A stretch of 42,617 bases of DNA from a virus: positions 8,496 to 51,112 of IMG/VR virus record IMGVR_UViG_3300000101_004941; one strand, given 5' to 3'. A program made the position numbers and the translations under genes. Below, one piece after another: positions 3,337-36,819 of the stretch. How positions within the stretch are numbered: position 1 is the stretch's first letter; each line of letters begins with the position of its first letter. The notes under the pieces were generated by a model, which was given only the letters and a program-made list of their open reading frames with translations, was not told the origin of the DNA and searched no databases.

Positions 3337-4084
3337 TTAACATAAACCTTTTGTATTTGGGCAACTCTAATTCGCCGCTATATAAAATATTATCCATAGG
3401 TGCTTTTACTGCAAACTCTTCTATACTTCCAACACAATTAACATGTTCCTCTACTTCGAAAAAGTTATTGCTTTGTAGTATAACTAGTTTACCATCTGGT
3501 ATTAGATCATACCATTTTGAAAAGTTTTCAATGTGTTCACAACTTGTATTGATAATTGTGTCTGGTGAATCACTAAGCTCGCATTTACTACCGTCTGCAC
3601 GTTTTACGTTGTACGTGTGCATAGAAAAATTTATTTCATTGATGTCTTGTGTGATTGTTTTAAATTTCCAATCTTGTTTAACCCAAGGACTATTAAATGT
3701 TTCTGCTATACTCCGACAACTATCGTCAATGTCAAAACTACGTATTTTGTTTATACGCATTCCGCTTTCAAATAACAGTGTAGCAAGTGTAGCATACCAT
3801 CCTGCACACAAGAATACTGTGCCTAAATCTACTTTAAGGTTACTAAGTTCTTTTACTAACCATAGTTTGCTTTCTAGTTGTCCTCGACTAAAACAATCTG
3901 TATTAAAACTATCGTCATCCTTGTATTTTCGCAGGCCTTCAATAAGTTGGCTGTTGTTTTGATCTTGAATCAACCTAAATAAAGCAAATTTATCATCATT
4001 TAAAATTGCCTTTCTTAAATCAGTAAAAAAAGTATTAGTTGGATCTAATAGTTCTAACCTATCTAATATTTCATGTATCTGCAC
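3323..4084 (-). CDS. Class I SAM-dependent methyltransferase-like protein
   Basis: A 253-residue protein. It starts at GTG 4084, chosen because AAAGGAG sits seven bases upstream. After a helical N-terminal region, a Rossmann-like core begins near residue 87: GTVFLCAGWYATLATLLFE resembles a motif I glycine loop. It is followed by an acidic strand end (IRSFDIDD, near 113-121) that would bind the SAM ribose, and then by IINTSCEHIENFSKWYDLIPDGKL, like motifs IV-V. The glycine loop is not canonical GxGxG, so substrate and even activity are uncertain. It overlaps the preceding glycosyltransferase-like gene by 14 bases and the following small gene by 14 bases. Methylation of a sugar or of a modified product of the island is a reasonable inference. 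Confidence 0.72.
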   Translation of the reverse strand: MQIHEILDRLELLDPTNTFFTDLRKAILNDDKFALFRLIQDQNNSQLIEGLRKYKDDDSFNTDCFSRGQLESKLWLVKELSNLKVDLGTVFLCAGWYATLATLLFESGMRINKIRSFDIDDSCRSIAETFNSPWVKQDWKFKTITQDINEINFSMHTYNVKRADGSKCELSDSPDTIINTSCEHIENFSKWYDLIPDGKLVILQSNNFFEVEEHVNCVGSIEEFAVKAPMDNILYSGELELPKYKRFMLIGIK

Positions 4085-4742
4085 TATACTTCTCCTTTAA
4101 CCAATCAAAGTTGTTTATTAACCCCAGATCAGCGCCATTAGAAAGCCCGTACTCCCTGCCAGCACAAGCACCTTTAATAGCGTACTCGCCGAAGGGACGG
4201 TCTCCTCCCACTGTTGTCCAAATTCGTAATCTTTCATTTGTTTCTTCCTCATTTTGTCTGTCAATAATCTTACTCGCTAGTTTTGTACACTCTCTAAATG
4301 CACTGCGCCATGTACTAAATTCATCTACATTAAATGCTGTTACATTTGATATATCCTGCATCAATTTAAACTTATCACTAATACTTGTAGTCATATCAGG
4401 TTTACTAGTATCCATGTTTATAGTGTTGTTTCTAGGAAACAATTTTACACCACCATATCCATATACTAAGTCGTTAATTGGATTTTGACTTCGCCAAACA
4501 TGCACATGATCTAATTCGTATTTTGGAGGTACATAACTGAAATCAAAATCACTTAAAATAACAGCGTCTGCATCAACAATATAAAACATTCTAGTACAGG
4601 CTTTTTTTGCAGCTTCAATATGAGCCTGGTGTATTCCTTCTATACCATGTGTACGTTTTGCATAAGGGTACTTTTGTTTGAGCTGTTGCCAGTTATAATC
4701 TGCTTCAACTTCATTGTAACTTATAAATGCTATGTCATACAT
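4071..4742 (-). CDS. Glycosyltransferase-like protein (GT-A type), 223 aa
   Basis: The N-terminus DIAFISYNE opens a nucleotide-sugar-binding type fold, and FYIVDADAV places a DxD motif at residues 57-59, the usual metal/UDP-sugar site of GT-A enzymes. YGYGGVKLFPRN and the TWRSAFRE segment match the 305-residue protein at 7445-8362 in the same order (YGNGGLKCWPKE, AWRAGFRE), so the two are paralogs; this copy lacks the roughly 80-residue C-terminal extension. A perfect sigma-70 promoter sequence ends five bases before the ATG, which would give an almost leaderless transcript. Apart from a weak AAG no ribosome site is obvious, so readthrough from the preceding gene may also drive translation. 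Donor and acceptor are unknown. Confidence 0.7.
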   Translation of the reverse strand: MYDIAFISYNEVEADYNWQQLKQKYPYAKRTHGIEGIHQAHIEAAKKACTRMFYIVDADAVILSDFDFSYVPPKYELDHVHVWRSQNPINDLVYGYGGVKLFPRNNTINMDTSKPDMTTSISDKFKLMQDISNVTAFNVDEFSTWRSAFRECTKLASKIIDRQNEEETNERLRIWTTVGGDRPFGEYAIKGACAGREYGLSNGADLGLINNFDWLKEKYSADT

Positions 4743-4747
4743 GTCTT

Positions 4748-4776
4748 ATTATACTACCTTTTATCCAAATTGTCAA
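4748..4776 (-). promoter_or_regulatory. Consensus sigma-70 promoter (second island promoter)
   Basis: Reading the minus strand, TTGACA (4771-4776), 17 bases, then TATAAT (4748-4753): both hexamers and the spacer match the bacterial housekeeping consensus exactly. The -35 box lies in the last codons of the 452-residue radical SAM gene, and the -10 box fills the 11-base gap before the next ATG at 4742. Transcription would start at or within a base or two of that ATG. It could drive the downstream glycosyltransferase, methyltransferase and three radical SAM genes separately. Confidence 0.75.
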
Positions 4777-6112
4777 TAGTATCTACCCAATCTGTAAGTA
4801 TTTTAGGAAATACATCTAAACTTCTATGTCGACGTAAATCGTACTGTGCATAAAATGTTTTAAAGTCATGCCATAATTTAGCAGGGTCACTTGTACGTCT
4901 ATGTGGAGCATCTACAGTTACTAAATAATCAATTAATCTTTCAATGCTTGCTTTTTCGTGTTCGTGCCAAAGTTCTTTATGCTTAACTTCTTCATACCAA
5001 GTACTTAGATTGTTATGGCAATAATCTTTAAGATGCACTGGTAATGCTAACGGACTTTGAAAACTAGGAAACCGCAACAAATTTAAACTTACTGTTGGCT
5101 TTCTGTCTTGTCCTTTTAGTGAATATATTTGGTCAAGAAATTCAGTAATACTAAACAAACATAGACTGTTTATTGTCATCATAATATGTAATTCTGCATC
5201 AGTTTCATTGAGTATACGCTTTACATTATTCAACCACATATCATAATCTAATCCATCACGTATATATTCTGCTTGGTCGCCGACTGCTTCACAACTAGTA
5301 TAGATATGAAACTTTTTTATTCCTTGTGCTTTTTCTATTAATTTATCAATAATGCTTTCTTTAGCAATTAAATTACTGTTAATTGCAAATCGCATATTAG
5401 TATCTTGTTCTTCAAACCAATCAAATAGTTTCCAAGTGTTGCCGCTCATTAATGGCTCACCACCTGTAATACGTATCTCGTCTAAGCTATCTGCAAGACC
5501 GTTGTCCCACCATTTCCAAAATGCTTGTATATAAGGATTGTCTGCATCATCGTTATATGGAGCGGCCCAATCACCGTTGTGTTTAAATGCACCAGCACCA
5601 TCACTAACTAAATTTTCATAAGGCCCGTGTTTGTTAATATCTTTTGCCCAAGTAGTACTAAAACTAGCATTGCAATATGAGCATGCAAGGTTACATGTTC
5701 TATCAAAGGCAATTTCAAAAGTTTTTAAATTAGTGTTAGCATTCCAGTCTGCATCATAAGCTGCTTGTAATTCTTCGTCTGTATAGATAATAGTTTTAAA
5801 GGTGCGATCACTTACAGCATCTTTTTTCATATCTTCCATCTTCCAACAGTAATCGCACTCTGCAGGACGTTTGCCAATTTGCATTTGGCGGCGCATCTCT
5901 TTTTTATGCTTAGTGTTGTGTATAGCTGTATAATTTTCTTCTACTTCTTCAAGTGGAATCTTATGTGCAGGCGGGTGATGACAACTAGCTGTTGTACCAC
6001 TTCCTAACCAAGTTGTAGCATTGAACCATTTAGCTCCACAGAAGCTTTCACTTTTTGGATCTATAATACGTTCTCTATATTGTAATAAACTTTCGTCTTT
6101 TTTAGCTGGCAT
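4754..6112 (-). CDS. Twitch-type radical SAM protein, 452 aa
   Basis: N-terminal Cys-rich region FCGAKWFNATTW with SCHHPPAHKIPLEE and CDYCW (Cys 25, 44, 86, 89), then the radical SAM motif CNLACSYC at Cys 140, 144 and 147, then IRITGGEPLMSG about 75 residues on. This layout is that of twitch-domain radical SAM proteins. It is a clear paralog of the next protein upstream (448 aa): the SCHHP, KIPLEE, DINKHGPY, TGGEP and RRHRSLDVFP-like segments occur in the same order. AGAGGA stands five bases before its ATG, which overlaps the end of the paralog by 11 bases. The product is soluble, with no signal peptide or membrane helix. Reaction and substrate are unknown. Confidence 0.9.
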   Translation of the reverse strand: MPAKKDESLLQYRERIIDPKSESFCGAKWFNATTWLGSGTTASCHHPPAHKIPLEEVEENYTAIHNTKHKKEMRRQMQIGKRPAECDYCWKMEDMKKDAVSDRTFKTIIYTDEELQAAYDADWNANTNLKTFEIAFDRTCNLACSYCNASFSTTWAKDINKHGPYENLVSDGAGAFKHNGDWAAPYNDDADNPYIQAFWKWWDNGLADSLDEIRITGGEPLMSGNTWKLFDWFEEQDTNMRFAINSNLIAKESIIDKLIEKAQGIKKFHIYTSCEAVGDQAEYIRDGLDYDMWLNNVKRILNETDAELHIMMTINSLCLFSITEFLDQIYSLKGQDRKPTVSLNLLRFPSFQSPLALPVHLKDYCHNNLSTWYEEVKHKELWHEHEKASIERLIDYLVTVDAPHRRTSDPAKLWHDFKTFYAQYDLRRHRSLDVFPKILTDWVDTIDNLDKR

Positions 6113-7448
6113 GCCATTCCTCTAACAATGATGCATATTCTGGAAACGTATCTTTAAAGTTTTTATTTCTACGTTTGTCATACTCAAGTATATATTTACA
6201 AAAGTCATTGCGGTATTCAATAGCTGGTTTAGATATTTTAAGATAATGACAAAGTCTTTTAATCTGATCAAGTTCTTCTAAATACATTCTAGCATATCTA
6301 TCCTTACTTGAATATTTAGACCAACTGTTACAAGTTGATTCAATTTGATTAGCATATTGTATACGCTTTTCTTTATCTAACAATGTGGTTTGTAGATGTT
6401 TTGGCCATCTTAAATAATTAATACTAATTGGTATTCTGTTTTCTTCTAAATTAAAATTATATTTTTTTCTAAGTTGCATAATATCTTCTATAAAATTTGA
6501 AAACTCTGGCAAACTTAAAATATTTATAGTTGTCATTATCAAAACATTACTAGTTGTTTCAGTTAGAATACGGTTTACATTCTTATACCAAAGAGTATAA
6601 TCCATACCATCTCTTACGTAATTATTTTGTACTCCTGTTGACTCTGCACTAGTATAAACATCAACCTTCATACCAACTTTATAAAGTGCATTTATCTTAT
6701 TAATTAATTTATTAATTAACTTATCTGGTACTCCTAAGTTTGTGTTAATAGCAACTTCAAAATCTTGAGGATTATCAATTAAGAAATCAAGAAGTTTCCA
6801 TAGGTCTTTCGACATTGTAGGTTCACCGCCTGTAATACGTAATACACGCAAATCTTTTAATATAGTAGGAAACCACTTCCAAAACGCATCTACATAAGGA
6901 TTATTATCGCTTTGTTTATAAACATATTTAGAAGACCCATTATTAGTTGAATATGGTCCGTGTTGATTTATATCTTCCATCCACTTTGAACTAATTTCTG
7001 GTGAGCAATATGCACATGCAAAATTACATGCATTACTAAAGCTAACTTCTAAATAACTAGGCGACACATTATCTTGCGGATTACCTTTTGCAATATCTTC
7101 AAATTTATCCCAAGCCCAGTAGTCAGCTGTTTTATAATGTCTATCACTGAAATATTCTTTATCTAAATCTTCAATCTTCCAACAGTAATCACATTCACTT
7201 GGTCGTTCTCCTTTCAACATCATAGCACGTTGTTCTTTTTTAAATTTACTGTTGTGCAATGCCGCAGGATCTGCTTCTATCTCTTCTAATGGAATTTTAT
7301 GAGGTGCAGGATGATGACAACTATGGTTATACCCTGTTTGTAAATACAGTGTTGTTTGTAGCCATTTAGCCGTACAGAAACTACAACTAACCGAGTTAAT
7401 TTTATTTTTCTTTTCTTTTAATATTTCTATTTGACGTTCATTGCTCAT
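6102..7448 (-). CDS. Twitch-type radical SAM protein, 448 aa
   Basis: Has the same domain order as its neighbour at 4754-6112: Cys 22, 25, 44, 86 and 89 in the N-terminal region (FCTAKWLQTT, SCHHPAPHKIPLEE, CDYCW), radical SAM cysteines 141, 145 and 148 in CNFACAYC, and LRITGGEPTMSKDLWKLLDF. The two proteins keep these blocks at almost identical residue numbers, pointing to tandem duplication followed by divergence. Its ATG overlaps the stop of the upstream glycosyltransferase-like gene as ATGA, and there is no clear ribosome site, so translation is probably coupled to that gene. This gene is more AT-rich and lysine/asparagine-rich than its paralog. Substrate unknown. Confidence 0.9.
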   Translation of the reverse strand: MSNERQIEILKEKKNKINSVSCSFCTAKWLQTTLYLQTGYNHSCHHPAPHKIPLEEIEADPAALHNSKFKKEQRAMMLKGERPSECDYCWKIEDLDKEYFSDRHYKTADYWAWDKFEDIAKGNPQDNVSPSYLEVSFSNACNFACAYCSPEISSKWMEDINQHGPYSTNNGSSKYVYKQSDNNPYVDAFWKWFPTILKDLRVLRITGGEPTMSKDLWKLLDFLIDNPQDFEVAINTNLGVPDKLINKLINKINALYKVGMKVDVYTSAESTGVQNNYVRDGMDYTLWYKNVNRILTETTSNVLIMTTINILSLPEFSNFIEDIMQLRKKYNFNLEENRIPISINYLRWPKHLQTTLLDKEKRIQYANQIESTCNSWSKYSSKDRYARMYLEELDQIKRLCHYLKISKPAIEYRNDFCKYILEYDKRRNKNFKDTFPEYASLLEEWHAS

Positions 7449-8362
7449 TCGGGATCAATTACAAATTGCTCTTGGGGGTTTCTACTTGGATTTTGATATA
7501 CGTGTTTGAAAAATTTACTTTGTTGTTCGTCAAGTGGCATCTGGCCAATTGGTATTTCTAAACTTTCAATTAGCGATGCTCCCAAGACTTCAATTGCTTC
7601 TAATAGCATCGATTGAGAATCTACTGATTCTTTTTCTTTCCACATGTTATTTAGGTATTCAAAGTCTCGAACATTTACATAATCCCAGTCAGTAAGCATT
7701 GTTTTTACCAAGCCTTCCCTAGCACCATATATTGCCCATAGCCCATTTTTAACATCTGAACCTACCATTAGCCATATCCATAACCTATGCAAGTTTTTCC
7801 AATGACCTTTTAAAAAGTCTTCTTTAGAAGGCTTTGCTCCTTGATTAAGTGCCATTTTTACACCTTCTCTAAATCCTGCTCGCCAGGCTTGTTGTGGTGT
7901 TTCATTATTATGTACATCAGAGTAACAACTATTTTGTTGAATATAGTTTAAGTCCCAACAAAAATCTACCTGTGCAGCAATGTTATCTTTATCTGCATTT
8001 TCATGTGTACGCATGTTTAACACATGTTCTTTAGGCCAGCATTTAAGTCCTCCGTTGCCGTATAGTAATCCATTAATAGTATTTTTACCACACCAGCTAA
8101 TTACGCTAGTTTGTAAGTCACTGTGTTTTGATAAGTCTAATTCTTGTTGTAAAAATTCGGCACGTATAGTATTGTCGCCATCAACTGTAATAAATCTATC
8201 TGTTTCACTAAGTTCAGCGCAGGCTTTGTGTGCTGCGTCACTACCTTCTACACCGTGTACACGCTTTGCCCAGGGTGCCTTAGTTAATAGATCTGCATAA
8301 TTTTTTTCTGCATTTGGTTCATCATAACTTAAATAAATTATATCATAGTCAATTATTTTCAT
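7445..8362 (-). CDS. Glycosyltransferase-like protein (GT-A type), 305 aa
   Basis: The start is set at ATG 8362 (MKIIDYD) because AAAGGA lies seven bases upstream; an in-frame ATG at 8389 has no such support. DIIYLSYDEP opens the domain and FITVDGDN gives a DxD-type motif at residues 61-63. The block order HGVEG, DGD, YGNGGLKCWPKE, AWRAGFREG matches the 223-residue protein at 4071-4742, so the two are paralogs. The C-terminal 70-80 residues are extra and acidic (PIGQMPLDEQQSKFF). It overlaps the preceding gene by 14 bases and the next radical SAM gene by 4. Each of the two radical SAM twins thus has one of these glycosyltransferase-like paralogs beside it. Donor and acceptor are unknown. Confidence 0.7.
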   Translation of the reverse strand: MKIIDYDIIYLSYDEPNAEKNYADLLTKAPWAKRVHGVEGSDAAHKACAELSETDRFITVDGDNTIRAEFLQQELDLSKHSDLQTSVISWCGKNTINGLLYGNGGLKCWPKEHVLNMRTHENADKDNIAAQVDFCWDLNYIQQNSCYSDVHNNETPQQAWRAGFREGVKMALNQGAKPSKEDFLKGHWKNLHRLWIWLMVGSDVKNGLWAIYGAREGLVKTMLTDWDYVNVRDFEYLNNMWKEKESVDSQSMLLEAIEVLGASLIESLEIPIGQMPLDEQQSKFFKHVYQNPSRNPQEQFVIDPE

Positions 8363-8897
8363 AATATTTTCCTTTGTGTACATGTTCAATTGAACTTCCT
8401 AAAGTAAGTATTGACGCATTATTGTTTGCAGAATTACTATCAATAACTATTATATTCTTTGTAGATAATTCTTTTAAATTAATAGAAAACTTATCAAATA
8501 AAATAAATCTGTTTTTAGAACTAACTATGTAGTATTCTTTTATATGGTCGTCTCCATTTGATAATGCAGCACAAGTTTCATTACTCATGTAATTATTTAC
8601 AGTCCAAGACGAACTATTCTGGACAATTTGAATACAGTTATCTGTTGTTGTATCTTTTTTTTCTATAAGCCCAGTTTGATGTTTATCAAGTTGTTGTTCA
8701 GAAAAATCTGTAGGAACTACATAATATTTGCCTTTTGTTATAACATCCTCAGCAATTTTATAATTAAACATTTCTTTTTGACCAGTATTGAAGTCATTAA
8801 AAAGTTGTTCATCTATTTCAAGAAAAAGCCCGTTAGAATCTATTGTGTTTGCTATCGACGTAATATTGTAATCGTTATCATAATGTACGTAAAACAT
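8349..8897 (-). CDS. Protein of unknown function, 182 aa
   Basis: I do not recognise this protein. The start is placed at ATG 8897 (MFYVHYDNDYN), where the stop of the upstream gene and this ATG share one base (TAATG); an in-frame ATG at 8918 lies inside the upstream gene. The first half looks like alternating strands and helices (YVHYDNDYNITSIAN, FLEIDEQLFNDF). The second half has a Ser/Asn-rich segment (NSSSWTVNNYMSNETC) and a strand-rich end. There is no signal peptide or membrane helix. It sits between two glycosyltransferase-like genes, overlapping the second by 14 bases, so it probably acts in the same pathway or is an acceptor or partner; this is inference from position only. Confidence 0.75.
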   Translation of the reverse strand: MFYVHYDNDYNITSIANTIDSNGLFLEIDEQLFNDFNTGQKEMFNYKIAEDVITKGKYYVVPTDFSEQQLDKHQTGLIEKKDTTTDNCIQIVQNSSSWTVNNYMSNETCAALSNGDDHIKEYYIVSSKNRFILFDKFSINLKELSTKNIIVIDSNSANNNASILTLGSSIEHVHKGKYYENN

Positions 8898-9706
8898 TAT
8901 ACCTGTTCCTCTAACCATTGTACTACATCATCTGTTAAAAATTCATCTTCCACATAATGTAATACGCCCGATTGTTTATAGCCATTAATTAATATATTAG
9001 AATTATCCAAGTCTACTGGTAGTACGTCGGTCCATTTTGACGGTGTATTATTTAAATTTTGTACACGAGACTTCATATGAGTGAAAGATAACAAACTATC
9101 GTTGTGCAGAGTGTTGCCCTCTATTCCTAATATTTTTAATGCAATTGCTACACTAACATCAACACTACACCAATTTTGAAAATTGTTAGGTGCATATTTT
9201 TTATAAAATACTTTCCAATTTTTCATTATTATATCTAATAATGTAAAAAATTTGTGGGTGCTTTCACATTTTAAAAACTGGTACATTCCTACATAGACGT
9301 CGGGTAAACTATTAGCATCAAAAGTTTTTCTATAATATCTATCAGTAACAATTTCGTTTCTATAAGTTTTTACACTATTGGTAAAAACAAGATTGTGATA
9401 ATGCTTCCAAATATAATCTATATTTTCAAGAACCAACATGTCTACATCAAATACTATTGTATTTCTATACGGAGTTACATGATAAACTTTCCAACGATTT
9501 TCAATCTTCCAATCATTATGTGCCATGTCACTCCACGGTATAGGAATTACTTTATCAAATACATTGTATGGTACATCGTCATCTGTAATTAAACTGATAT
9601 TAGTATTTGGTGACTTAGCAAGTATACTCAATGCTAACGCATAGGCCTGTCTTATATAGTTTGTTTTTGAATTGTTTTGTGCGACAAGACAGATTCCATT
9701 ATTCAT
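8897..9706 (-). CDS. Glycosyltransferase-like protein (GT8-like), 269 aa
   Basis: Begins MNNGICLVAQNN, a first strand followed by a helix carrying Tyr-Ile-Arg-Gln-Ala, then SLITDDD and TIVFDVDMLVLENID, where DVD (residues 87-89) is the metal/sugar-nucleotide DxD motif. QNWCSVDVSVAIALKILGIEGN fits the later acceptor-side acidic helix of GT-A enzymes. The N-terminal 20 residues closely match the 282-residue protein just upstream (MNNGVVLFAFNN, YIKQA), so they are paralogs. AAGGAG lies seven bases before the ATG, which overlaps the upstream gene by 8 bases. The fold assignment is fairly secure; family and substrates are not. Confidence 0.75.
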   Translation of the reverse strand: MNNGICLVAQNNSKTNYIRQAYALALSILAKSPNTNISLITDDDVPYNVFDKVIPIPWSDMAHNDWKIENRWKVYHVTPYRNTIVFDVDMLVLENIDYIWKHYHNLVFTNSVKTYRNEIVTDRYYRKTFDANSLPDVYVGMYQFLKCESTHKFFTLLDIIMKNWKVFYKKYAPNNFQNWCSVDVSVAIALKILGIEGNTLHNDSLLSFTHMKSRVQNLNNTPSKWTDVLPVDLDNSNILINGYKQSGVLHYVEDEFLTDDVVQWLEEQV

Positions 9707-10547
9707 TTACAAACTCCTTGTCTATGAATTCATTTAAACTAAATTTATTCATTACATGTGTAGTAGCATCTGTTAATTTTACAGCTTTATAGTCGTAGTT
9801 TCGTTGTGCCAACATTTTAATTTTATTATCTTTAATATCCATTAACAGATCTTTGTCGGTTGAAACCCACATATCTCCTGGTATTGCTGTAGGCCAGTTA
9901 CTATCTTCTACAAATCCTCGCATTGTATGTATTGCTATACTAAATGCAAAATCGTTTCTAAATTTTGTTTCACTTATGTTATAAACAAGTCTATAATAAT
10001 TATAATTTTCTTTAATGTGTTCTACTAAATCAAACACTGTCTTTGTTGTATTACTTTTTGTAAAATATAATATTGTTGCCCAATACATTGGAATAGTCGA
10101 ATCGCTAATCCTATTAAAACTAGGATGTGTAATTTCTTGATTTATTAAATTATAATCTTTTGCTATCATAAAATCATCAGGCAAAGAAAAACAAGTTAAT
10201 AATTTATTATTACTAATTAACAAATCTGTATCAAGTACTATAGTTTTGTCAAAAATGGATAACCTATATGCATTGCTACGTTCTGTATTTTTCCACTCTA
10301 ATCTTTTGTTTGCATAAATTCCATCATAGAAAGTTTTCTGTGATCCAGCAGGTGTAGGAATGATAGTTAGTTCGTCAATATATTTTGTATAAAACGGATA
10401 TTCAGATTGAATATAATTAACAGAATCTGTAATTAACTGAACTGGCAGATTAAGGTACTGTTTTACACGTTTTGCACAATATATTGCTTGCTTAATATAA
10501 TCTATATGTGTATTGTTAAAAGCAAATAATACTACACCATTGTTCAT
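9699..10547 (-). CDS. Glycosyltransferase-like protein (GT8-like), 282 aa
   Basis: Same plan as the following 269-residue protein: MNNGVVLFAFNN, a helix with YIKQAIYCAKRV, LITDSVN, then KTIVLDTDLLI with DTD at residues 106-108. An AFSIAIHTMRGFVEDSNW segment matches the SVAIALKILGIEGN region of the paralog in position. The ATG overlaps the stop of the 115-residue gene as ATGA. The gene is second in the operon that starts at the 10917-10945 promoter. It is probably a nucleotide-sugar-dependent transferase in the cytoplasm of the infected cell; the acceptor could be a phage fibre, host surface sugar or small molecule. Confidence 0.75.
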   Translation of the reverse strand: MNNGVVLFAFNNTHIDYIKQAIYCAKRVKQYLNLPVQLITDSVNYIQSEYPFYTKYIDELTIIPTPAGSQKTFYDGIYANKRLEWKNTERSNAYRLSIFDKTIVLDTDLLISNNKLLTCFSLPDDFMIAKDYNLINQEITHPSFNRISDSTIPMYWATILYFTKSNTTKTVFDLVEHIKENYNYYRLVYNISETKFRNDFAFSIAIHTMRGFVEDSNWPTAIPGDMWVSTDKDLLMDIKDNKIKMLAQRNYDYKAVKLTDATTHVMNKFSLNEFIDKEFVNE

Positions 10548-10891
10548 AAGTTAGTAAGCCCTTCAACTGATCTGTTTTGTCTAATATCATCGTAGTCTTT
10601 AGCATATTTTCTACTAGCAAAGATATATACACCTACAATATCTTTCATAAATTCTTTTGGATTATCAATTACTACCGGAATTTCATTATCGTCTAATACA
10701 ACTATTTGCTCTTGCTCAGTTTCTAGAAGAACTGATAGTAAATTTATAAGTTGTGTAGATACTGTAAATTTGTAGCCATAAGCATAATGAATAAGATTAT
10801 CTTTATATTGTTTTAAAAAGATGCGTTTTTGGTTGTTTTGTGTTTCTAAAAAATTAGAAAATTCTAGAGCTTTTTCTAGTCGTTCGTCCAT
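10544..10891 (-). CDS. Small conserved phage protein of unknown function, 115 aa
   Basis: First gene of the cargo operon, with an excellent ribosome site (AAGGAG, five bases, ATG) and a consensus promoter 26-54 bases upstream. The sequence begins with a charged helix (MDERLEKALEFSNFLET, NNQKRIFLKQYKDNLI) and continues with KFTVSTQLINLLSVLL, then a short hydrophobic/acidic segment (IVVLDDNEIPVVID) and a C-terminal helix with Arg/Tyr/Asp. It reminds me of a short protein found near tail-fibre genes in marine T4-like phages, but I cannot name a function. There are no cysteines, signal peptide or membrane segment. A chaperone or regulator role would suit its position, but is a guess. Confidence 0.8.
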   Translation of the reverse strand: MDERLEKALEFSNFLETQNNQKRIFLKQYKDNLIHYAYGYKFTVSTQLINLLSVLLETEQEQIVVLDDNEIPVVIDNPKEFMKDIVGVYIFASRKYAKDYDDIRQNRSVEGLTNL

Positions 10892-10916
10892 AGGATCTCC
10901 TTGTATATACTATTGT

Positions 10917-10945
10917 ATTATACACTAAAACTAGATATTTGTCAA
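10917..10945 (-). promoter_or_regulatory. Consensus sigma-70 promoter heading the cargo operon
   Basis: On the minus strand TTGACA (10940-10945) is followed after exactly 17 bases by TATAAT (10917-10922), a perfect match to the bacterial housekeeping promoter. It lies in the 61-base gap between the end of the 302-residue structural gene and the ATG at 10891. Transcription would start around 10910 and give a leader of about 20 bases containing AAGGAG. The adjoining virion genes carry T4-type late motifs instead, so this marks a change in expression class. Confidence 0.85.
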
Positions 10946-10952
10946 GAGTTAA

Positions 10953-11861
10953 TTAGAAAGTATTTGAGGCGCCTGTAGCTACACTAGGTGATGTAACTTC
11001 TACATTTGAACCTGTAGCACGTCTAACAGTAATGGAGCTTGTTAGTGTGCCTTTGACGTTTTCGTCTTCTGGTGCACCCGAGCCTGTTTGATCGCCAGCA
11101 TCATCGTCTCTAAATACTACTCTTACTCTAATACCATTAGTAATATAGCGTATAAAGATTTGATAATCGTTTTCTGCGTACGGATTTGTACCGCCATCTT
11201 GGAATATTTTTACTTCAGTACCATTTGTATTTAAATCATACATACCTGTATTAGTAACTGTTCCTTGATTACCGCCGCCATCTGCATATGCACTAGTATA
11301 GTTTATACTTACATGTTTAGCATCGTTTACTAGGCTTTTCCAGTCTAATGTCTTTGCTTCTGATCCTGTGTAAGATAAACTAGAAACAACTTTTACTGTT
11401 CCGCCAGCGTTCCAAAATGCTTTAAAGGCATTTGCATTAGCCCATGTTAATTGAACATCATGTTGTTGTGTGCCGTTCCAGTTGTTTTTATTTGCTGTTC
11501 TTGCTGTACTAAGTGTACTTTGTGCCGTTGCTAGTGTAAATCTATTTGATGTTACTGTTGCTAGTGCTGTTTCAAATTCGTTATGTATTGCTGCTGTAAT
11601 GCCTGTGTCTGTATCGACTGTTGTTAGTGCTACAGCACTATTAGTTTGGTGTGCGCTTGCTTTGCGAATATCACCTCGTAAGTTATTCCATTGACTAGCT
11701 GTTATAGTCGATCCTACTGATACACTGGGTGCATCAATTGATTCGTTATATCCGGCGGATGAATTGCCACTACCTGTAGGAGTTCCCATTACTGTGTTTA
11801 TACCACTTCTTAGAGTAGTATAATGTGTTTCGTTAATACTTGTGCCTACTGATACAGCCAT
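10953..11861 (-). CDS. Putative virion structural/fibre-associated protein, 302 aa
   Basis: Last gene of the fibre module. The N-terminus has an internal repeat: VSVGTSINETHYTTLRSGI (from residue 3) and VSVGSTITASQWNNLRGDI (about residue 47), each ending in a short helix. The middle contains Ala/Thr/Asn-rich helix-like sequence, and the C-terminal half is strand-rich with Gly/Asn/Ser. No enzyme motif is seen. Such composition and its place after three fibre genes suggest a fibre tip or virion decoration protein. It has its own T4-type late promoter (11889-11896) and AAAGGAAC before the ATG, so it is expressed with virion genes rather than with the downstream enzymes. Specific role unknown. 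Confidence 0.75.
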   Translation of the reverse strand: MAVSVGTSINETHYTTLRSGINTVMGTPTGSGNSSAGYNESIDAPSVSVGSTITASQWNNLRGDIRKASAHQTNSAVALTTVDTDTGITAAIHNEFETALATVTSNRFTLATAQSTLSTARTANKNNWNGTQQHDVQLTWANANAFKAFWNAGGTVKVVSSLSYTGSEAKTLDWKSLVNDAKHVSINYTSAYADGGGNQGTVTNTGMYDLNTNGTEVKIFQDGGTNPYAENDYQIFIRYITNGIRVRVVFRDDDAGDQTGSGAPEDENVKGTLTSSITVRRATGSNVEVTSPSVATGASNTF

Positions 11862-11888: not shown

Positions 11889-11896
11889 TATTTATA
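11889..11896 (-). promoter_or_regulatory. T4-type late promoter (TATAAATA)
   Basis: TATAAATA on the minus strand is the exact T4 late -10 motif, 28 bases upstream of the ATG at 11861 and overlapping the stop of the 502-residue fibre gene. It matches three GATAAATAC copies placed 23-28 bases before other virion genes here. Confidence 0.75.
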
Positions 11897-13400
11897 CTTT
11901 TAAAACACACTCAATTAGTTTTTCTGACTCGTCAGTGCTTGATTCTAATGCAATTCCAACTAATGCTGTTGACGCAATAGTTGTACATACTCCGTTGTCC
12001 CATGCGTAAACTGGTTGCCCTTTTGTAACAACTCCACTTACTCTTACAGGAACTCGACCTTTAAGACCAATTGCTTGGCCATCACAGTCGCTATTCATTA
12101 AGTATGCAGGTTCTGCAGATATAACTCCTATTGCCATACAACTTGCTTTACATGCTGTTGCTTCTGCTTCGCCGCCAACACACATTGCTGTACCTGTTGG
12201 ATAATCTTGATCAGTTACGTAAACTTCTGCTAAGTCAGCGTATCTTGCACTTGTTGCCGTACCTTGAAATAATACAGCATTTAAATTTCCTGAACCGTCT
12301 CTTACAGCTACAGTATTACCAGTGCCTGTTCCGCTTGTGTCTACTGATCCTATTCTAGTATTTCCACCTACAATAAGGGCACTTGCTTTTTCTGAAATTC
12401 CATAATAATTTCCAGCATACACATCATCAAATGGTGCAGCTGTTGAACCTATATCTATACTTCTATAAACAGTCGGACTAAGACTTTGTATACCAGGTAA
12501 AATATTCCCTGGACGGATATCTACAACACTTACGTTTGCTCCGCCGGATTCTTTTACTCTAAATTTAATTTCGTCACCTTGTGAATTTTGAATTACACCT
12601 TCGTTATCATTTTCAATAAATAATTTAAGATCGAGTCCTGTACCAATTGCAATACCTGCATCAGTTTGGAAATTTGTAATTTCTGTGAATACTGTTGGCG
12701 CACCCGGATTTGCTGTAACATAGTTACTTGCACTTATTCCGTTAAGTTTTAATGCGTTAGAAGCTGTACCGTGGAACTGATGATCTGTACTTGTTACTCC
12801 AGCTGTTGCACTTTGCGTATTTTTAAGTGTAACACCTTGGCGTACTATGTCAAATCCTGAAATTGCATTTTGTGCATCAGTTGAGTCGATTGTAAATTCT
12901 ACTGGGCTTATTAAAAATTGTACATCGTCATTTACTGTGGCTGCAATTACACTTCTACTAATTGATCCTGTATCAAGTACAGATTTACTTTGCATCTGTG
13001 TAATACCTGTGCCTGCATCTTGGGGACCTACAAGTACAAAGTCTGTGCCGTTATATGCATATAACTGTTGGTTAGTTGTATCCCACCAAAAATCACCTGT
13101 TGATAATCCTGCTGGTGCTGTAGCACTAATTTCTGCGCCGCCTGTTGTGCGCCATTTACCACCGTCATAAAATTTTAATTTGCTGTTTGCTGTATCAAAC
13201 CATATTTGGCCTTGTATAGCCCTTGGTGGTTGATTTGCTCCTGCAAAGTTTTCTAAAAGAAATACAAAGTTTTCGTTTTGTATCTCGCCGTACCCTGCAT
13301 AATTCTTACCAACTAACTTAATGTCAGTTGTTTGATCAATAGTACCGTCTTGTACTATTGTAAGCTGGGTAGTATCATATTTGTTTATTGTATACGCCAT
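11892..13400 (-). CDS. Tail fibre-like virion protein, 502 aa
   Basis: Residues 1-90 share a module with the 640 and 698 residue proteins upstream: AYTIN..., QDGTIDQTT, LVGKNYAGYGE, NENFVFLLENFA, then IQGQIWFDT and a KFYDGGKWRTTGG-like repeat with GDFWWDTTNQQLYAYNG. The middle is repetitive beta sequence. The C-terminal 110 residues begin SARYADLAEVYVTDQDYPTGT and contain AIGVISAEPAYLMNS and KGRVPVRVSGVVTKGQPVYA, a domain common at the ends of marine phage fibre or structural proteins. Unusually, this domain has several cysteines (MCVGG, ACKASC, DCDG, VCTT, LIECVL). It probably forms trimers at the tail tip. Driven by the late motif at 13425-13432. Confidence 0.82.
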   Translation of the reverse strand: MAYTINKYDTTQLTIVQDGTIDQTTDIKLVGKNYAGYGEIQNENFVFLLENFAGANQPPRAIQGQIWFDTANSKLKFYDGGKWRTTGGAEISATAPAGLSTGDFWWDTTNQQLYAYNGTDFVLVGPQDAGTGITQMQSKSVLDTGSISRSVIAATVNDDVQFLISPVEFTIDSTDAQNAISGFDIVRQGVTLKNTQSATAGVTSTDHQFHGTASNALKLNGISASNYVTANPGAPTVFTEITNFQTDAGIAIGTGLDLKLFIENDNEGVIQNSQGDEIKFRVKESGGANVSVVDIRPGNILPGIQSLSPTVYRSIDIGSTAAPFDDVYAGNYYGISEKASALIVGGNTRIGSVDTSGTGTGNTVAVRDGSGNLNAVLFQGTATSARYADLAEVYVTDQDYPTGTAMCVGGEAEATACKASCMAIGVISAEPAYLMNSDCDGQAIGLKGRVPVRVSGVVTKGQPVYAWDNGVCTTIASTALVGIALESSTDESEKLIECVLKV

Positions 13401-13424: not shown

Positions 13425-13432
13425 TATTTATC
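13425..13432 (-). promoter_or_regulatory. T4-like late promoter (GATAAATA)
   Basis: GATAAATAC on the minus strand in the 38-base gap between two fibre genes, 25 bases upstream of the ATG at 13400. Differs from the T4 late consensus TATAAATA only at the first base, which is G in three of the four copies in this window. Confidence 0.7.
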
Positions 13433-17458: not shown

Positions 17459-18073
17459 TTATCCCTCGTTAAAACCAGTTAAACTTTGTACTCTAACTGT
17501 ATAATCTATTTGTATAAGTCTATTTAAACTTTTTTGTACAGGGTGGAAAATTACATGTGTTAGTAATCTGCCAGTACCTGATGCATTATATGCTTTAAGA
17601 CCCAATTCATCAAAAACGTATAAACTATTTTGATCTGCAGCTGTATCAAACGCATCTTGCCCTGTCGGTTCGCCGTAATCTAATAAACAAGTTACTAAAA
17701 TATCTGTATAGTTTGTTCCGCTTACATGACGTGTTTCAATTTTGTTTCTTGCAGGATCTAAATTGTTAACACTTCTGTCATCTACTATTTTTGTAAATGT
17801 TTCATTATATAAACTAGCATTTGTTCCAGTTGAGTTAGGTGTTAGATATGTAATAATCCCTGTTGGATCAACACTTGTGCCACCGTTGCCAAACCCCATT
17901 TCGTAAATCCAACCTGTGCCAGCATTTCCTAAACTCTCTGCAAGGCTTATACTCATATTTTCATAATGTATAGCATTGCGTTTGTCTACAATTACTTCAC
18001 CAGTTTCTGGATTACTTATTTTAATGTGCCCTTGAAGTAGCACACCGTTTTGTTCGTTTAATTTATCTGTCAT
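17459..18073 (-). CDS. Virion structural protein, 204 aa
   Basis: A strand-rich protein beginning NGVLLQGHIKISNPETGEVIVDKRNAI, then YEMGFGNGGTSVDPTGIITYL and, at the C-terminus, RLLTHVIFHPVQKSLNRL followed by IQIDYTVRVQSLTG. No cysteine-based or catalytic motif is visible. Position between the giant baseplate-slot protein and the short tail fibre suggests a baseplate peripheral or fibre-attachment protein (T4 has gp8-gp11 here), but I see no motif that fixes which one. The T4-like late motif at 18096-18103 lies 23 bases upstream of the ATG, with AGGATGG as the ribosome site. Confidence 0.78.
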   Translation of the reverse strand: MTDKLNEQNGVLLQGHIKISNPETGEVIVDKRNAIHYENMSISLAESLGNAGTGWIYEMGFGNGGTSVDPTGIITYLTPNSTGTNASLYNETFTKIVDDRSVNNLDPARNKIETRHVSGTNYTDILVTCLLDYGEPTGQDAFDTAADQNSLYVFDELGLKAYNASGTGRLLTHVIFHPVQKSLNRLIQIDYTVRVQSLTGFNEG

Positions 18074-18095: not shown

Positions 18096-18103
18096 TATTT
18101 ATC
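18096..18103 (-). promoter_or_regulatory. T4-like late promoter (GATAAATA)
   Basis: GATAAATAC on the minus strand, overlapping the TAA stop of the 5051-residue gene, 23 bases upstream of ATG 18073. Spacing and sequence match the other late motifs in the window. Confidence 0.7.
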
Positions 18104-21100
18104 GCGGCAAGTCAACTGTTGCTGCACGTAAGAATCTACTAATGTTAGAATCGCTATCTACTAGTGAAATTCCTGGTTCAGACCACCTCTGCCCCTGTTT
18201 TCTTACAATAATTACCTTAGTATTTTGTACTGGGGTAGTTGTAAGTGCTAATTGATTACCATTTAAAGTAAATTCTGCTGTTAATGTTTGATCTCCTTCC
18301 GGACTATCTTGTGCTAGTGGACCATTTACATCATCAAATTTGTAAGAATCTATTGCGTTTTTACGTAAACGTCTACCTGCAACAAATACTTCAAATTCAT
18401 TTACACTAGTAGGTGTAAAGTCAAGATTATAAGTTGCTGTTGTTCCGTCTGCTGTGAATACTGTTGTTAGTGTTTCATCTTTATAAGGCATTGAGTTTTT
18501 ACCTGAAACATTTAATACGACTGTATTTTCTGGGTACATATGTTTAACACCTGTTCCTAATGTTCCTCTTCGATACTGACTTATTACATTCCCGTTTCTA
18601 ACAAAATACTCAATGCGTTCTCCGTCAATCATTATAACTGCAGGCTTTATTGACCCTGCAATAGGTGACGGTAATGCATCACCGTTAATTACAGTAATAC
18701 TTTGATCGTATTGATATAAGTCTTTTGCTAATGTAACTTCTTGCTCGTTATTTAATCTTATATATTGTGTTCTATTTAACATATCTTTAAACTGTGACCA
18801 ACCAAATTTATTTTGTGTTTTACTAGCAGAGAAATGTATTACTTGTACAGTATCGTTAAGTGATATTTTTGTTTCTATTTTAACATATTGCTTATTATCA
18901 GTTACATAATAGTCTACACTCGGAGTAAGTAATTGACCATTAATCGATACCCATAAATATTGTGCATCAATAGCCGGATTGTTTAATTTTATAAGTCCGT
19001 TATGTAGATGTATATACTTTTGATATTCAACAGAACCAGGTGTTAGATTAATTCGATCAACTACATCATAATTTATTGTTTGAATATCTTGCCAATCATG
19101 ATTGCTAAATGTAAATATTTCAATTTCTTCTCCTTCAGCAATAGCTGTATCAAAATATATTTGATTAGGCGTTTTTACAAACAGTCTTGAACTAGGATCG
19201 ACATATCCAAATCTATATTCTCCGTTAGTCATTACAAAAATATCTAAAATGTCGCCGTCTTTTTGTTGAACTTCGCCCTTTAATCTAATAACAGTACTAG
19301 CACCTACTATTAAATTATATTGTACTGTTTCTAATATAACACCGTTTAGATAAACTTCTACATATCTGCTATCGATAGTGCCTGGCGGAAATTGCCATTC
19401 TTCAATCTGATATTCTAATTTAGTTGATGTAGTAATATGTCTTAAACTATAACCCGAATCATATATTTTATTTCCTTGCTTTACAATTGTTTTAAAGTGT
19501 AAAGGTTGTTGTACACTAGGAACTGTGGTAATGTCATACGCTAAACTACTTCCATCTGCTGTTATAGTTTCTACATTTACTTCACTATAGTTTTTAACTA
19601 GTAAATCATCTTCAAAGAACACATATTTAATTTCAGTTCCTGCTGTTGGCGGAACTGCAAACTTAATTAATGCGTTGCCAGCTGCGCCATCTGCTTTTTT
19701 ACTTTTACTTACAACGTTTTCTATTGGGAGACCATCTTTTGTAATAATGTTTTGTAAATTAGCTTTGTATCTTACAGTTGTTAAAAATGAAGTTGTACTT
19801 CCGTCAGCAACTATTGTATCTATATCAATTATTTTATTTCCGCTAACTCCAAGTGTAAGTATATTAACTTTAGCATTTATTACAGGTGCTGTAGATAATG
19901 TTATAGTGTTATCATTAAAATTAATAGTATAGTCGTTATCGGCTCCAAGTTTTTGTATATTTCCTGCAACTTTAACAAACACCGATTCTGTTGTTAATGG
20001 CTCGGCTCCAATTTTAAATGTAACTTTACTACCGTTTCCATTATAGTTTGTAGACGTTATTTGACTGCCGCCACCTTTTGGTCTTTCATACACTTTAATA
20101 TCTACTGTATCTAGTAATTGTCCAGGAATCTGCTCTTCAGGTCCTGCACTTGTTGTAGGTGTTACAAATCCATCACCATCAATTGTAATATCAGCACTTT
20201 CTAAACCAGTTGCTGTTGAGTAGTTTAAATTACCGCCTTGTATAATACTATCATATGTCTGCTCATTTGGTAGGAATGTTCCGTCGCTTGTTGATTTTCT
20301 AAATATTACAACATCAGTATTTCCAAATGCAACTGATTCTTCATCAAATGCAACATAGTTTGTTACATCATAATCGTCATCTGTCCTAGACCATGCTGTT
20401 TGTCCTGCACCTGTAATACTTTGTACTAGTGCATTTGGATTTGTCTGTTGTGCTGTTCCAAAATTAGGATCATCAATTCTAATGCCGTTTTTATAAACAT
20501 GATATTCTACGCCAGTTACTAAAGGCTTACTAAAGTTAAACAGTGTAGTACTATCGCCTAATTCAAAAATTTCATCATCGTATGTATTATCATAACTATC
20601 CCAAGTTGATCCAAACCATGCATCTGAATCCCACCCTTGTCCTTGTGACATTCCAAAGCTCTTAACTTCTACGCCGCCATAATCAATTCCAGTCATTAGT
20701 TGACCTAAGTCTTTACCTAATTGTCCTTCTTGTGGATTGTATAATGTGTTTATTCTATCTGCAGCTTGGAATAAGTCCGGAGAAATTTTATAGTTTACAA
20801 TAATTACATCATTAGCATCTGGTTTGCTAGTAAACGATATTTGACCGTAGTACCTTTCGTAACTTGCTTGTTTATCCAATTTATTAATATACGAATATTC
20901 ATTACTTAACTGTTCAATATTATTTTTAAAAACACTTACATCAGTAATTTTTAAATCTATCGGCCAATTTAAATTAAATTCAAACTGAGATCCTGATGCT
21001 GTAAATGTTTGTGTTTGATCAATTTGCGTATATACATATGTTCCACTTGTTCTATCAAATCTAACTGAAGTTTTAATTCCTCTTACTGGATTGTTTCCTA

Positions 21101-24100
21101 GTTCTACACTAAAGGTTGCATCTCTGCCGCCTTCAACAAGATTACCGTTAACTGAAACTGTAGGAGAACTATAATAGCCTGTGCCAGAAACAACTACGTC
21201 AACCTTAGTTACATCTCCCTTAGTACCTAAATACGTTTTAAGGATAGTTCCAGTTCCACCGCCGCCGGTTAATGTTAATACTGGAGGTGATGTATAACCT
21301 TGGCCACCGTCTACAGGAGTTACACTGACAATGCTGTAACTACTATTATCTAGCCAATTTTTATTAGGATAAGATTCGAGCTCTGTAGTATTTCCTACTA
21401 ATACATCACTAACAACTTTAATATCCTTTGGTAATATTTTTCCTTCTAATGAATTATAAGCAGCTGGTAAATCAAAATCAGATGTTACTGTTTTAGTTGG
21501 ATCTATACCTTCGTAAGCACTTAAATATTCTCTAATTTTTGTTGAGAATGGTTTAACTTCTTTAACATATGCTTCATAGCTAGGTAAATTGTCGTTGTTG
21601 AATGTAATATCTTTTCGTAATGTACCTACGTTATGCTTTGCTTTTATAAAACTAGTTTTAAATGCCCAGTCAACGTATGTTTGTTCAGAAAACACATATC
21701 TTAATCCTGCAAAGAACAATTTATTAAATTCAACTAATAATTCGTCAATTAATAAATCATCTTTAATAGAATTTAAAATAATTCTAAGTTCTTTAATTGG
21801 TTCACTATCAAATATTTTAGTATCAAAACTAATTGTATCAAAACCTGTACTTGCAGCTAACGAATCATATAATGTATTTTTAAAATTAATTGTTCCGTTT
21901 TCTCTACCAATAGTTTTATAGTTTTGTGTATAGTCTTCAGTATCAATTGATGATATTTTTTCAATTAACAACCAGCCACCGGTTCCAACGTTTGAAATTT
22001 TTACAACTGAACCAACTAAATTATCTAAACTTGTAAGTTCGTAACTATTGTCAATTAAATAATCAATATCAGTTGTATCATTATACCCTGTTGCATACCA
22101 ATCAATATAATTCCAAAATATGCTTACATTGTAAGATTGGCTTCTTATTCTATTCCAAGTGCTGTTTTCTCTTTCATACAAAGCCCATTTACCAGACAAT
22201 GTTTCGTCTGCTTTAACTAGTACAGCAAAGTTGCGTACAGTTAATATAGTATTTGAATCGTAATAAGTACCTTGACTTATTACTGTAACCGATGTTATTT
22301 TACCTGCTCCATCGATTATTGGCAACAATTCTGCACCTGATCCTGACCCTGCTATTGTTATAGTAGGCGGAAATCTATATCCCTGTCCTGGATTGGTAAT
22401 AACTACGTCTGTAATTTTGCCATCTTTAATTACTGGTGTAACTGTTGCACGTTGTATTTTATCTGTTCCAACAGTTTTAAGATCAGCTACTGTTTCTACT
22501 TCAACATCATATAAATTACTAACAGTAGTTAATTTAGGCTCACTTAACGATAATTTGCTTATATCTTTATCGTCAATGATTAAATTTTTTGTAAGCACAA
22601 GATTAACACGTTCAATAAACTGTTTTAATGCTTCGTTCTTATTTTTAAACCATGACTGTCTTGGTCTGTTAAGTGAACCGTATTTTTCTTTTTCGCTTAG
22701 TGTAGGATCTGGAACTATTCTTGATTGTGCATCATATCCAATTAAACTATCAAACCACTTTATAACAACATCTGGATTAGGCTGACTTGTTTCTAATCCT
22801 TCGCTAACAATTTGATATTGATTGTGAACATTTTGATCTTGATTTTTAATTTTCCAAAACTGAACATTTAATGCTACATCAGTACCTTTTATTAATGAAT
22901 CGCAATTATATAGTACAAACTTTGACGGTGATATAAGTGCAACAAATTTATGACCTTTTGCAGCAGGATCTGTAATGTACTGTGCAATATCTCTCGTATC
23001 AATTTTTCTAAATTCTTGGTCTGGAACAATTGTTTTATCTGTTACCCAGAAATAATACTTATTTAGGAATGTTTTAGATACATCGTTATAAACTCGTCTA
23101 GTTGAATAAGAAGTATCTCCGTATAAACTTTGTCCGCTAAATCCGTTTGCAAATCCTTGTTCAGTATCAGCCTGTGCGTCCCAGGCGCTTGGTAAGATAT
23201 CTGACTCTACCCACTCGTAAATATCAATTGTATTTCCTTGGAACACTTTATTCCAAGACTGAGCTGCATATTCTATTGATCCTTGATACGGGTTATAAAA
23301 TTTTGCATTTGTTAAGTTCCACCAAACTTCACCTAACTGTTCTGGTCCCCAGGATGCTGTTTCATCTTTTATTGCACTAGCATTATTAGAAACACTGTAA
23401 ACAGCAGGATCATAATATGTTTTATATGTTAATTCTTGTTCTGCTGGTCCTGCAACCTTTCCTTGGATAGGATCTATATAATCTAAATATGTAAGTAGTT
23501 CATTATCAACTATATTGTATAAAAATATTTTTTTAATTTTTTGTACATCTACTGTTTGATTTGATGATCTATATGTTTCCCACATATTTACATTTTCATC
23601 TATTCTAAAATCAATTACTTGTCCTTGTGCATTGCTCTCAACTTTAGATGTTAGCCCTACATAAAAATGATTTTGTTTTGCATGTATATTTCTACCAAAT
23701 GTATTAATATCATTATCTGGAATTTGTATTGTTTGTGCAAATAACATTCCGGTTGGTGTCTTTTCATAAACAAATACAACTCCAACATCTATTCTTTCTT
23801 CAACTATTTCAGTAAATGCATTATCAAATCTAGTTGTATTTGAATCGAATGTTGTTGTTTGAGTAGAGTCACCGTTTCTTGAAGTTACAAATAACTTATT
23901 TCCGTCATATTGTAATTCCCAACCAAATCTTTCAGCACGTTCATTGTTAGGACTTTGTAAATCTTGTAAGAATGTAAACACACCATTAACTTGTTGATAT
24001 ATAGAAACTTTTCCTTGGTCTGCATTATAATCATCATTAAATGGTGCAGCAATTGCAATATACATTCCGTCGTCTGATATTGCTATAGCTTGGCCAAAGC

Positions 24101-36811: not shown

Positions 36812-36819
36812 TATTTATC
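36812..36819 (-). promoter_or_regulatory. T4-like late promoter (GATAAATA)
   Basis: GATAAATAC on the minus strand in the 56-base gap between gp25 and gp6, 25 bases upstream of the gp6 ATG. Would drive gp6 and the giant protein gene, which have no gap between them. The rest of the gap is AT-rich with no clear hairpin. Confidence 0.7.

Follow-up and report, generated by a model that had tools for sequence, protein, structure and literature searches.

Several described phage systems resemble the locus discussed here. In the T4-like cyanomyoviruses S-PM2 and Syn9, early genes have sigma70-like promoters and late genes have NATAAATA (PMC2984593). The host recognition cluster of the pelagimyophages is a hypervariable island located beside the tail fibres that contains glycosyltransferases and radical-SAM cassettes; in that study the prediction of middle and late promoters failed, and hence no late-promoter map is available (PMC7029224). 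The T4 genes e, soc, 49 and I-TevI are associated with hairpins in which a promoter lies within the hairpin region, and RNA started from that promoter is without the 5' arm (PMC3014915). Additionally, gp27 of Alteromonas phage V22, a protein bearing DUF4376, was identified as a tail-fibre chaperone (PMC7289586).

The window analysed here is a stretch of 42,617 nucleotides of viral DNA with a G+C content of 33.6%. An earlier note on this DNA had proposed that a perfect TTGACA-N17-TATAAT promoter, with an AAGGAG site downstream and a short distance to the first gene, heads an island of genes that lies among virion genes. The motif is exact at 10945-10917 on the minus strand (the strand was missing from that note), and the AAGGAG and the short distance were likewise found. 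It is very probable that a T4-like marine virus related to jumbo phages uses the site as a functional early (prereplicative) promoter, from which a polycistronic cassette mRNA is made; we infer its activity and timing from the motif, its conservation, the promoter classes and synteny. The elements of the site are as follows.

10945-10940, minus strand: -35 hexamer TTGACA, exact match
10922-10917, minus strand: -10 hexamer TATAAT, spacer 17, exact match
10910..10911, minus strand: predicted transcription start, about 7 nt past the -10, placed by sigma70 geometry
10902-10897, minus strand: Shine-Dalgarno (SD) AAGGAG, 5 nt ahead of the ATG, from the sequence
10902..10924, minus strand: inverted repeat TGTATA...TATACA spanning the -10 and the start; weak predicted stem of 10924-10919 with 10907-10902

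The bacterial sigma70 consensus is matched at 12 of 12 positions with a spacer of 17, the tail-region ORF that precedes the site (10953-11861) has its stop codon 7 nt ahead of the -35, and the distance from the -10 to the ATG of gene A at 10891 is 25 nt. A first-order Markov model predicts 0.039 perfect matches for the window as a whole, both strands counted, and 0.0005 for the 60-nt stretches upstream of its genes; two were observed (10917-10945 and 4748-4776; P about 7e-4). Looser sigma70-type matches occur in the window at the chance level (93 observed, 90.8 expected); the case therefore depends on the perfect score and on its conservation alone, and looser scoring was set aside as uninformative.

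At least 539 relatives of gene A are present in IMG/VR. The first conservation sample consisted of the best 80 of these, which gave 45 distinct upstream regions; the sampled relatives are best matches and not a random selection, with proteins down to 43% identity. TTGACW-N17-TATAMT is found upstream of gene A in 42 of the 45. A site can be read in 44 distinct relatives: the -35 is TTGAC[A/T] in 43 of them, the -10 is TATA[C/A]T in 43 and the spacer is 17 in all, and the hexamers are near-invariant while most spacer positions are variable. The previous stop codon is 1-14 nt from the -35 in all 44 loci. In a second, more divergent sample centred on a distant clade, the strict form is kept in 26 of 42 new distinct upstream regions, and roughly a quarter of the regions are without a clear consensus. 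The promoter is thus not indispensable to gene A, because some lineages have no recognisable consensus site. The comparative data mark the gene A site as a real promoter, and this reading, in which its activity is predicted, is well supported. Gene A promoters also differ from other host-type promoters in a T at -14 (43/44 vs 6/39), a purine at -13 (44/44 vs 23/39) and C as the fifth base of the -10 (22 of 43 gene A representatives vs 9 of 39 others, P 0.012).

The gene A site belongs to a wider class of host-type promoters. In 20 long related records the strict host-type motif occurs at 113 sites, compared with 3 for a reversed-pattern control. Complete reading of nine records placed 50 of their 68 sites no more than 60 nt ahead of an ORF start, gene A being headed by such a site in 9/9. 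The gene for the late sigma factor gp55 (phrog_12791) was detected in 15 of the 20 uncultured records, in each case with a host-type motif 19-27 nt upstream. Other genes headed by this class encode GTP cyclohydrolase (phrog_2197), a VWA-type protein (phrog_1314) and a 5'-exonuclease (phrog_107), as well as a DnaJ-like ORF (read from the sequence) and a regulator-like ORF. As the class heads the gene for the late sigma factor, it must act before late transcription, and by this inference an early timing of the host-type class is well supported. In T4, gp55 is a middle gene, and "early" could therefore mean early or middle. The proposal that a host-type promoter heads the island is thus borne out by conservation and by membership in the class that heads gp55, both of which are read from sequence. 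Activity of a strong host-type promoter may also persist into the late phase. As to the unmodified polymerase proposed in the earlier note, a search of 22 records for AsiA gave no match, and neither did its positive control.

The nearest cultured relatives are the jumbo phages PA5oct, SCTP-2 and Atu_ph07, and the best matches of gp6 and gp55 are to jumbo phages, at 38-47% identity. The strict host-type motif occurs at 14 sites in the genome of PA5oct (control 0) and at 12 in that of SCTP-2 (control 1); there is none in the genome of the Agrobacterium phage Atu_ph07, which perhaps reflects the sigma preference of its host.

In nine related records (G000-G006, G008 and G016) the distance from motif to ATG is bimodal in both classes. 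Host-type motifs are located either 5-6 nt (10 sites) or 19-47 nt ahead of the ATG, with none at 10-18 nt, and late-type motifs either 4-6 nt (12 sites) or mostly 16-30 nt; judged from these spacings, the short-distance groups of both classes would give leaderless mRNAs. The spacer of the GTP cyclohydrolase host-type site holds a conserved CCTAAATA, a near-match to the late motif (G001, G002, G003, G005, G008 and G016), and early and late promoters possibly overlap at this gene.

The late class, [GT]ATAAATA, sits 20-30 nt ahead of tail and baseplate genes. The following members were located in the window.

11889..11896, minus strand: late motif TATAAATA of the tail gene 10953-11861
13425..13432, minus strand: late motif GATAAATA of the tail gene 11892-13400
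18096..18103, minus strand: late motif GATAAATA of the gene 17459-18073
36812..36819, minus strand: late motif GATAAATA of the baseplate wedge gene 33254-36787

Ahead of the tail gene 10953-11861, NATAAATA is present in 43 of 67 distinct relatives and a host-type site in 1 of 67. The corresponding counts are 41/44 and 0/44 for the tail gene 11892-13400 and 30/32 and 0/32 for the gene 17459-18073, whereas gene A has the host-type site in 42/45 and the late motif in 0/45. The contrast in promoter class between gene A and the tail gene 11892 gives a Fisher P of about 3e-22, a value that is indicative as the sequences are related. The earlier attribution of T4-type late motifs to the neighbouring virion genes holds for the four genes listed and not for the other virion genes. 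No terminator was found ahead of the promoter in the window, and most relatives have none between the tail gene and the promoter. Late read-through into the island is expected, since the promoter lies 1-14 nt past the tail-gene stop, usually without a terminator. The view that the island is transcribed unlike its neighbours therefore stands in part: its promoter class differs, but late read-through is expected and the island holds a late motif. Between the gp6-like baseplate gene and the tail genes, positions 18099-33254 form a single ORF of 5051 aa, and in G002 an ORF of 5333 aa occupies the corresponding place.

The genes of the cassette and its second promoter are listed below.

10544..10891, minus strand: gene A, 115 aa, first gene of the cassette (44 relatives aligned)
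9699..10547, minus strand: gene B, 282 aa, probable GT-A-type glycosyltransferase (protein cluster cl1, shared with gene C)
8897..9706, minus strand: gene C, 269 aa, glycogenin-like glycosyltransferase (profile against PDB, glycogenin E 4e-6)
8349..8918, minus strand: gene D, 189 aa, fast evolving (synteny)
7445..8389, minus strand: gene E, 314 aa, glycosyltransferase-like fold (AlphaFold and Foldseek PDB)
6102-7448 and 4754-6112, minus strand: two radical-SAM proteins (Pfam PF04055 and PHROG)
4748..4776, minus strand: second perfect TTGACA-N17-TATAAT, 5 nt ahead of the ATG at 4742
4071..4742, minus strand: gene headed by the second promoter (protein cluster shared with gene E)

The order A-B-C-D-E followed by the radical-SAM genes is syntenic directly after the tail genes in nearly all relatives. 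The AlphaFold model of gene A (pLDDT 95) resembles DUF4376 phage proteins in fold, with many DUF4376 matches in a Foldseek search of BFVD at a TM of up to 0.79; the best E value was 4e-5 for an unnamed protein and 2.5e-4 for a DUF4376 protein. Gene A gave no Pfam family above the cut-off and no PHROG match. DUF4376 (PF14301) was not found by sequence for the 44 gene A members among the matches listed (25/28 families) or in 8 uncultured records. True membership of gene A in DUF4376 was thus rejected as unsupported by sequence, the likeness being in fold only, and a function could not be assigned through Pfam or PDB, where the matches were at the chance level. Neither gene A nor gene E has a tblastn match in 50,697 phage records. 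Gene B has a conserved DTD motif and no Pfam match, and the best PDB match of gene E in Foldseek is SunS (E 7.6e-5, low global TM). For PF04055 the protein of 6102-7448 is above the cut-off and that of 4754-6112 just below it, and both have PHROG radical-SAM matches.

The second promoter overlaps the stop codon of the ORF 4754-6112 and, judging by its spacing, probably gives a leaderless start. Orthologues of the gene that it heads have a host-type site 5-6 nt ahead of a conserved ATG in 9 of 24 distinct relatives, and the remaining orthologues look operon-internal. In a near-identical record the island continues for about 35 kb. It includes numerous radical-SAM genes and three host-type sites, as well as a single late motif located directly ahead of one radical-SAM gene. 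The radical-SAM gene at 1138-2239 of the window consists of two overlapping frames (1138-1992 and 1946-2239). Its counterpart in the near-identical record G016 is a single ORF of 356 aa, which indicates a frameshift or a sequencing error in the window.

In the proposed mechanism, host RNA polymerase with the housekeeping sigma factor would read the site at 10945-10917 soon after infection. The resulting polycistronic mRNA would have its 5' end near 10910, about 20 nt of leader and a strong site for ribosome binding, and would encode gene A, with its DUF4376 chaperone-like fold, followed by the glycosyltransferase-like proteins and the radical-SAM enzymes. These early enzymes, whose function is predicted, probably alter sugars of the host or of the virion ahead of virion assembly. 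Later, polymerase programmed by gp55 would start at NATAAATA promoters and read the neighbouring tail genes; these late transcripts probably also continue into the cassette by read-through.

A hairpin over the promoter may add a further layer of control. In divergent leaders, long complementary arms flank the -10 and the start, and the arm sequences differ between lineages. An initial test for inverted repeats gave an excess without constant arms or geometry; fixed operator arms were therefore rejected, and this outcome led to a swap test in which the segment from the -35 to the start was exchanged among the gene A loci. It is possible, though we hold this tentatively, that the hairpin sets the timing of expression. 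As the promoter start lies in the loop or the 3' arm, only read-through RNA carries both arms; late read-through RNA would fold and hide the SD, or terminate in some lineages, while RNA from the promoter's own start, without the 5' arm, would be translated. Expression of gene A would in this way be limited to the early phase, and the mechanism would complement the early-promoter reading and not replace it.

The swap test argues for such a role. Cognate pairs fold at -9.78 kcal/mol compared with -6.25 +/- 0.32 kcal/mol for swapped pairs (0 of 20000 permutations; 43 representatives below 70% identity), but the permutation leaves some relatedness in. The signal is stronger when G-U pairs are allowed (z -11.1) than without them (z -8.8), although the share of G-U pairs in cognate stems equals that of the swapped controls. 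No effect was seen at 27 other host-type promoters or at five of six control genes; the control z values range from -2.6 to +1.7, the small effect (z -2.6) being that of control gene 10953. Nine lineages that lack a consensus promoter also retain the effect (z -4.7). The SD is paired above 0.8 in 24 of 52 leaders, and in L222, L225 and L272 it lies in stems of at least 9 pairs that are followed by six or more T just ahead of the ATG, an arrangement that resembles an intrinsic terminator superimposed on the promoter. The T4 e/soc/49/I-TevI hairpins provide a precedent (PMC3014915).

Other results weigh against this role. The mean unpaired value of the SD is 0.29 with cognate and 0.33 with foreign 5' segments (median rank 0.48), so that the mean occlusion barely exceeds that with foreign segments, and SD sequestration was rejected as a general rule; in many clades the stem ends short of the SD. 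In the window the stretch from the -35 to the ATG is not special (MFE -7.0, rank 0.61 against swapped 5' segments), the SD is unpaired at 0.48 on read-through RNA and 0.45 on own-start RNA, and within the window's own clade there is no covariation beyond that of shuffles. In the window's TATAAT, an A stands where nine of twelve clade members have a C paired with G, and the perfect -10 thus comes with a weaker stem. An Rfam search gave no match. Statistically the hairpin is real in the relatives, strong in many of them and weak in the window copy, and its function is putative. The stronger proposal, that a covarying hairpin silences or ends late read-through RNA and thereby confines gene A to early expression inside a late tail operon, is somewhat unlikely. 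The covariation of a hairpin around the gene A start site in the relatives is a new observation.

Alternatively, a repressor of phage or host origin could bind the inverted repeat in DNA as a dimer and switch off the early promoter. The -10 and the start lie at the centre of the repeat, where operators are commonly placed, and the T at -14 that distinguishes gene A promoters (43/44 vs 6/39 others) is consistent with this. The arms, however, differ greatly between lineages with complementarity kept, as those of a fixed operator would not. In addition, the SD is often part of the repeat and the signal is stronger when G-U pairing is tolerated; we consider an operator unlikely. It is extremely improbable that the site is a chance match in A+T-rich sequence and that late read-through from the tail-gene promoters is the sole source of cassette expression, as conservation over divergent relatives with a fixed spacer and the 113-to-3 enrichment over the control pattern outweigh the chance-level counts of weaker matches in the window, the tail-gene gap of only 1-14 nt and the lack of the consensus in some lineages.

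If the site is an early promoter as proposed, hundreds of uncultured marine phages probably express a sugar/radical-SAM island early despite its location in a late region. Such early expression would make a role on the infected host cell, or in preparing precursors, more likely than a simple decoration of virions late in infection. The two classes also provide a promoter vocabulary for phages without a cultured host. If the hairpin acts as proposed, it would represent the classic T4 (lysozyme) control in a reversed-timing form.

The known systems differ in how they compare with this locus. The predicted fold of gene A is similar to that of DUF4376 chaperones and gene A directly follows a tail gene, but it is shorter, showed no sequence match to them and is headed by an early-class promoter. 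As in the pelagimyophage cluster, a variable glycosyltransferase and radical-SAM island lies beside tail genes, while the baseplate and sigma genes here are nearest to those of jumbo phages such as SCTP-2 and PA5oct. The repeat of the relatives has in common with the T4 gene e type that the promoter is inside the hairpin region; in T4 the embedded promoter is late and the silenced RNA early, whereas here the embedded promoter is of the host-type, early class and the upstream one late, so that the RNA to be silenced would be late read-through. The cyanomyoviruses share host-type hexamers ahead of early-gene homologues, the NATAAATA late class and gp55, but they are another phage lineage, and here the promoter is located inside a run of late tail genes, where it heads a glycosyltransferase/radical-SAM cassette.
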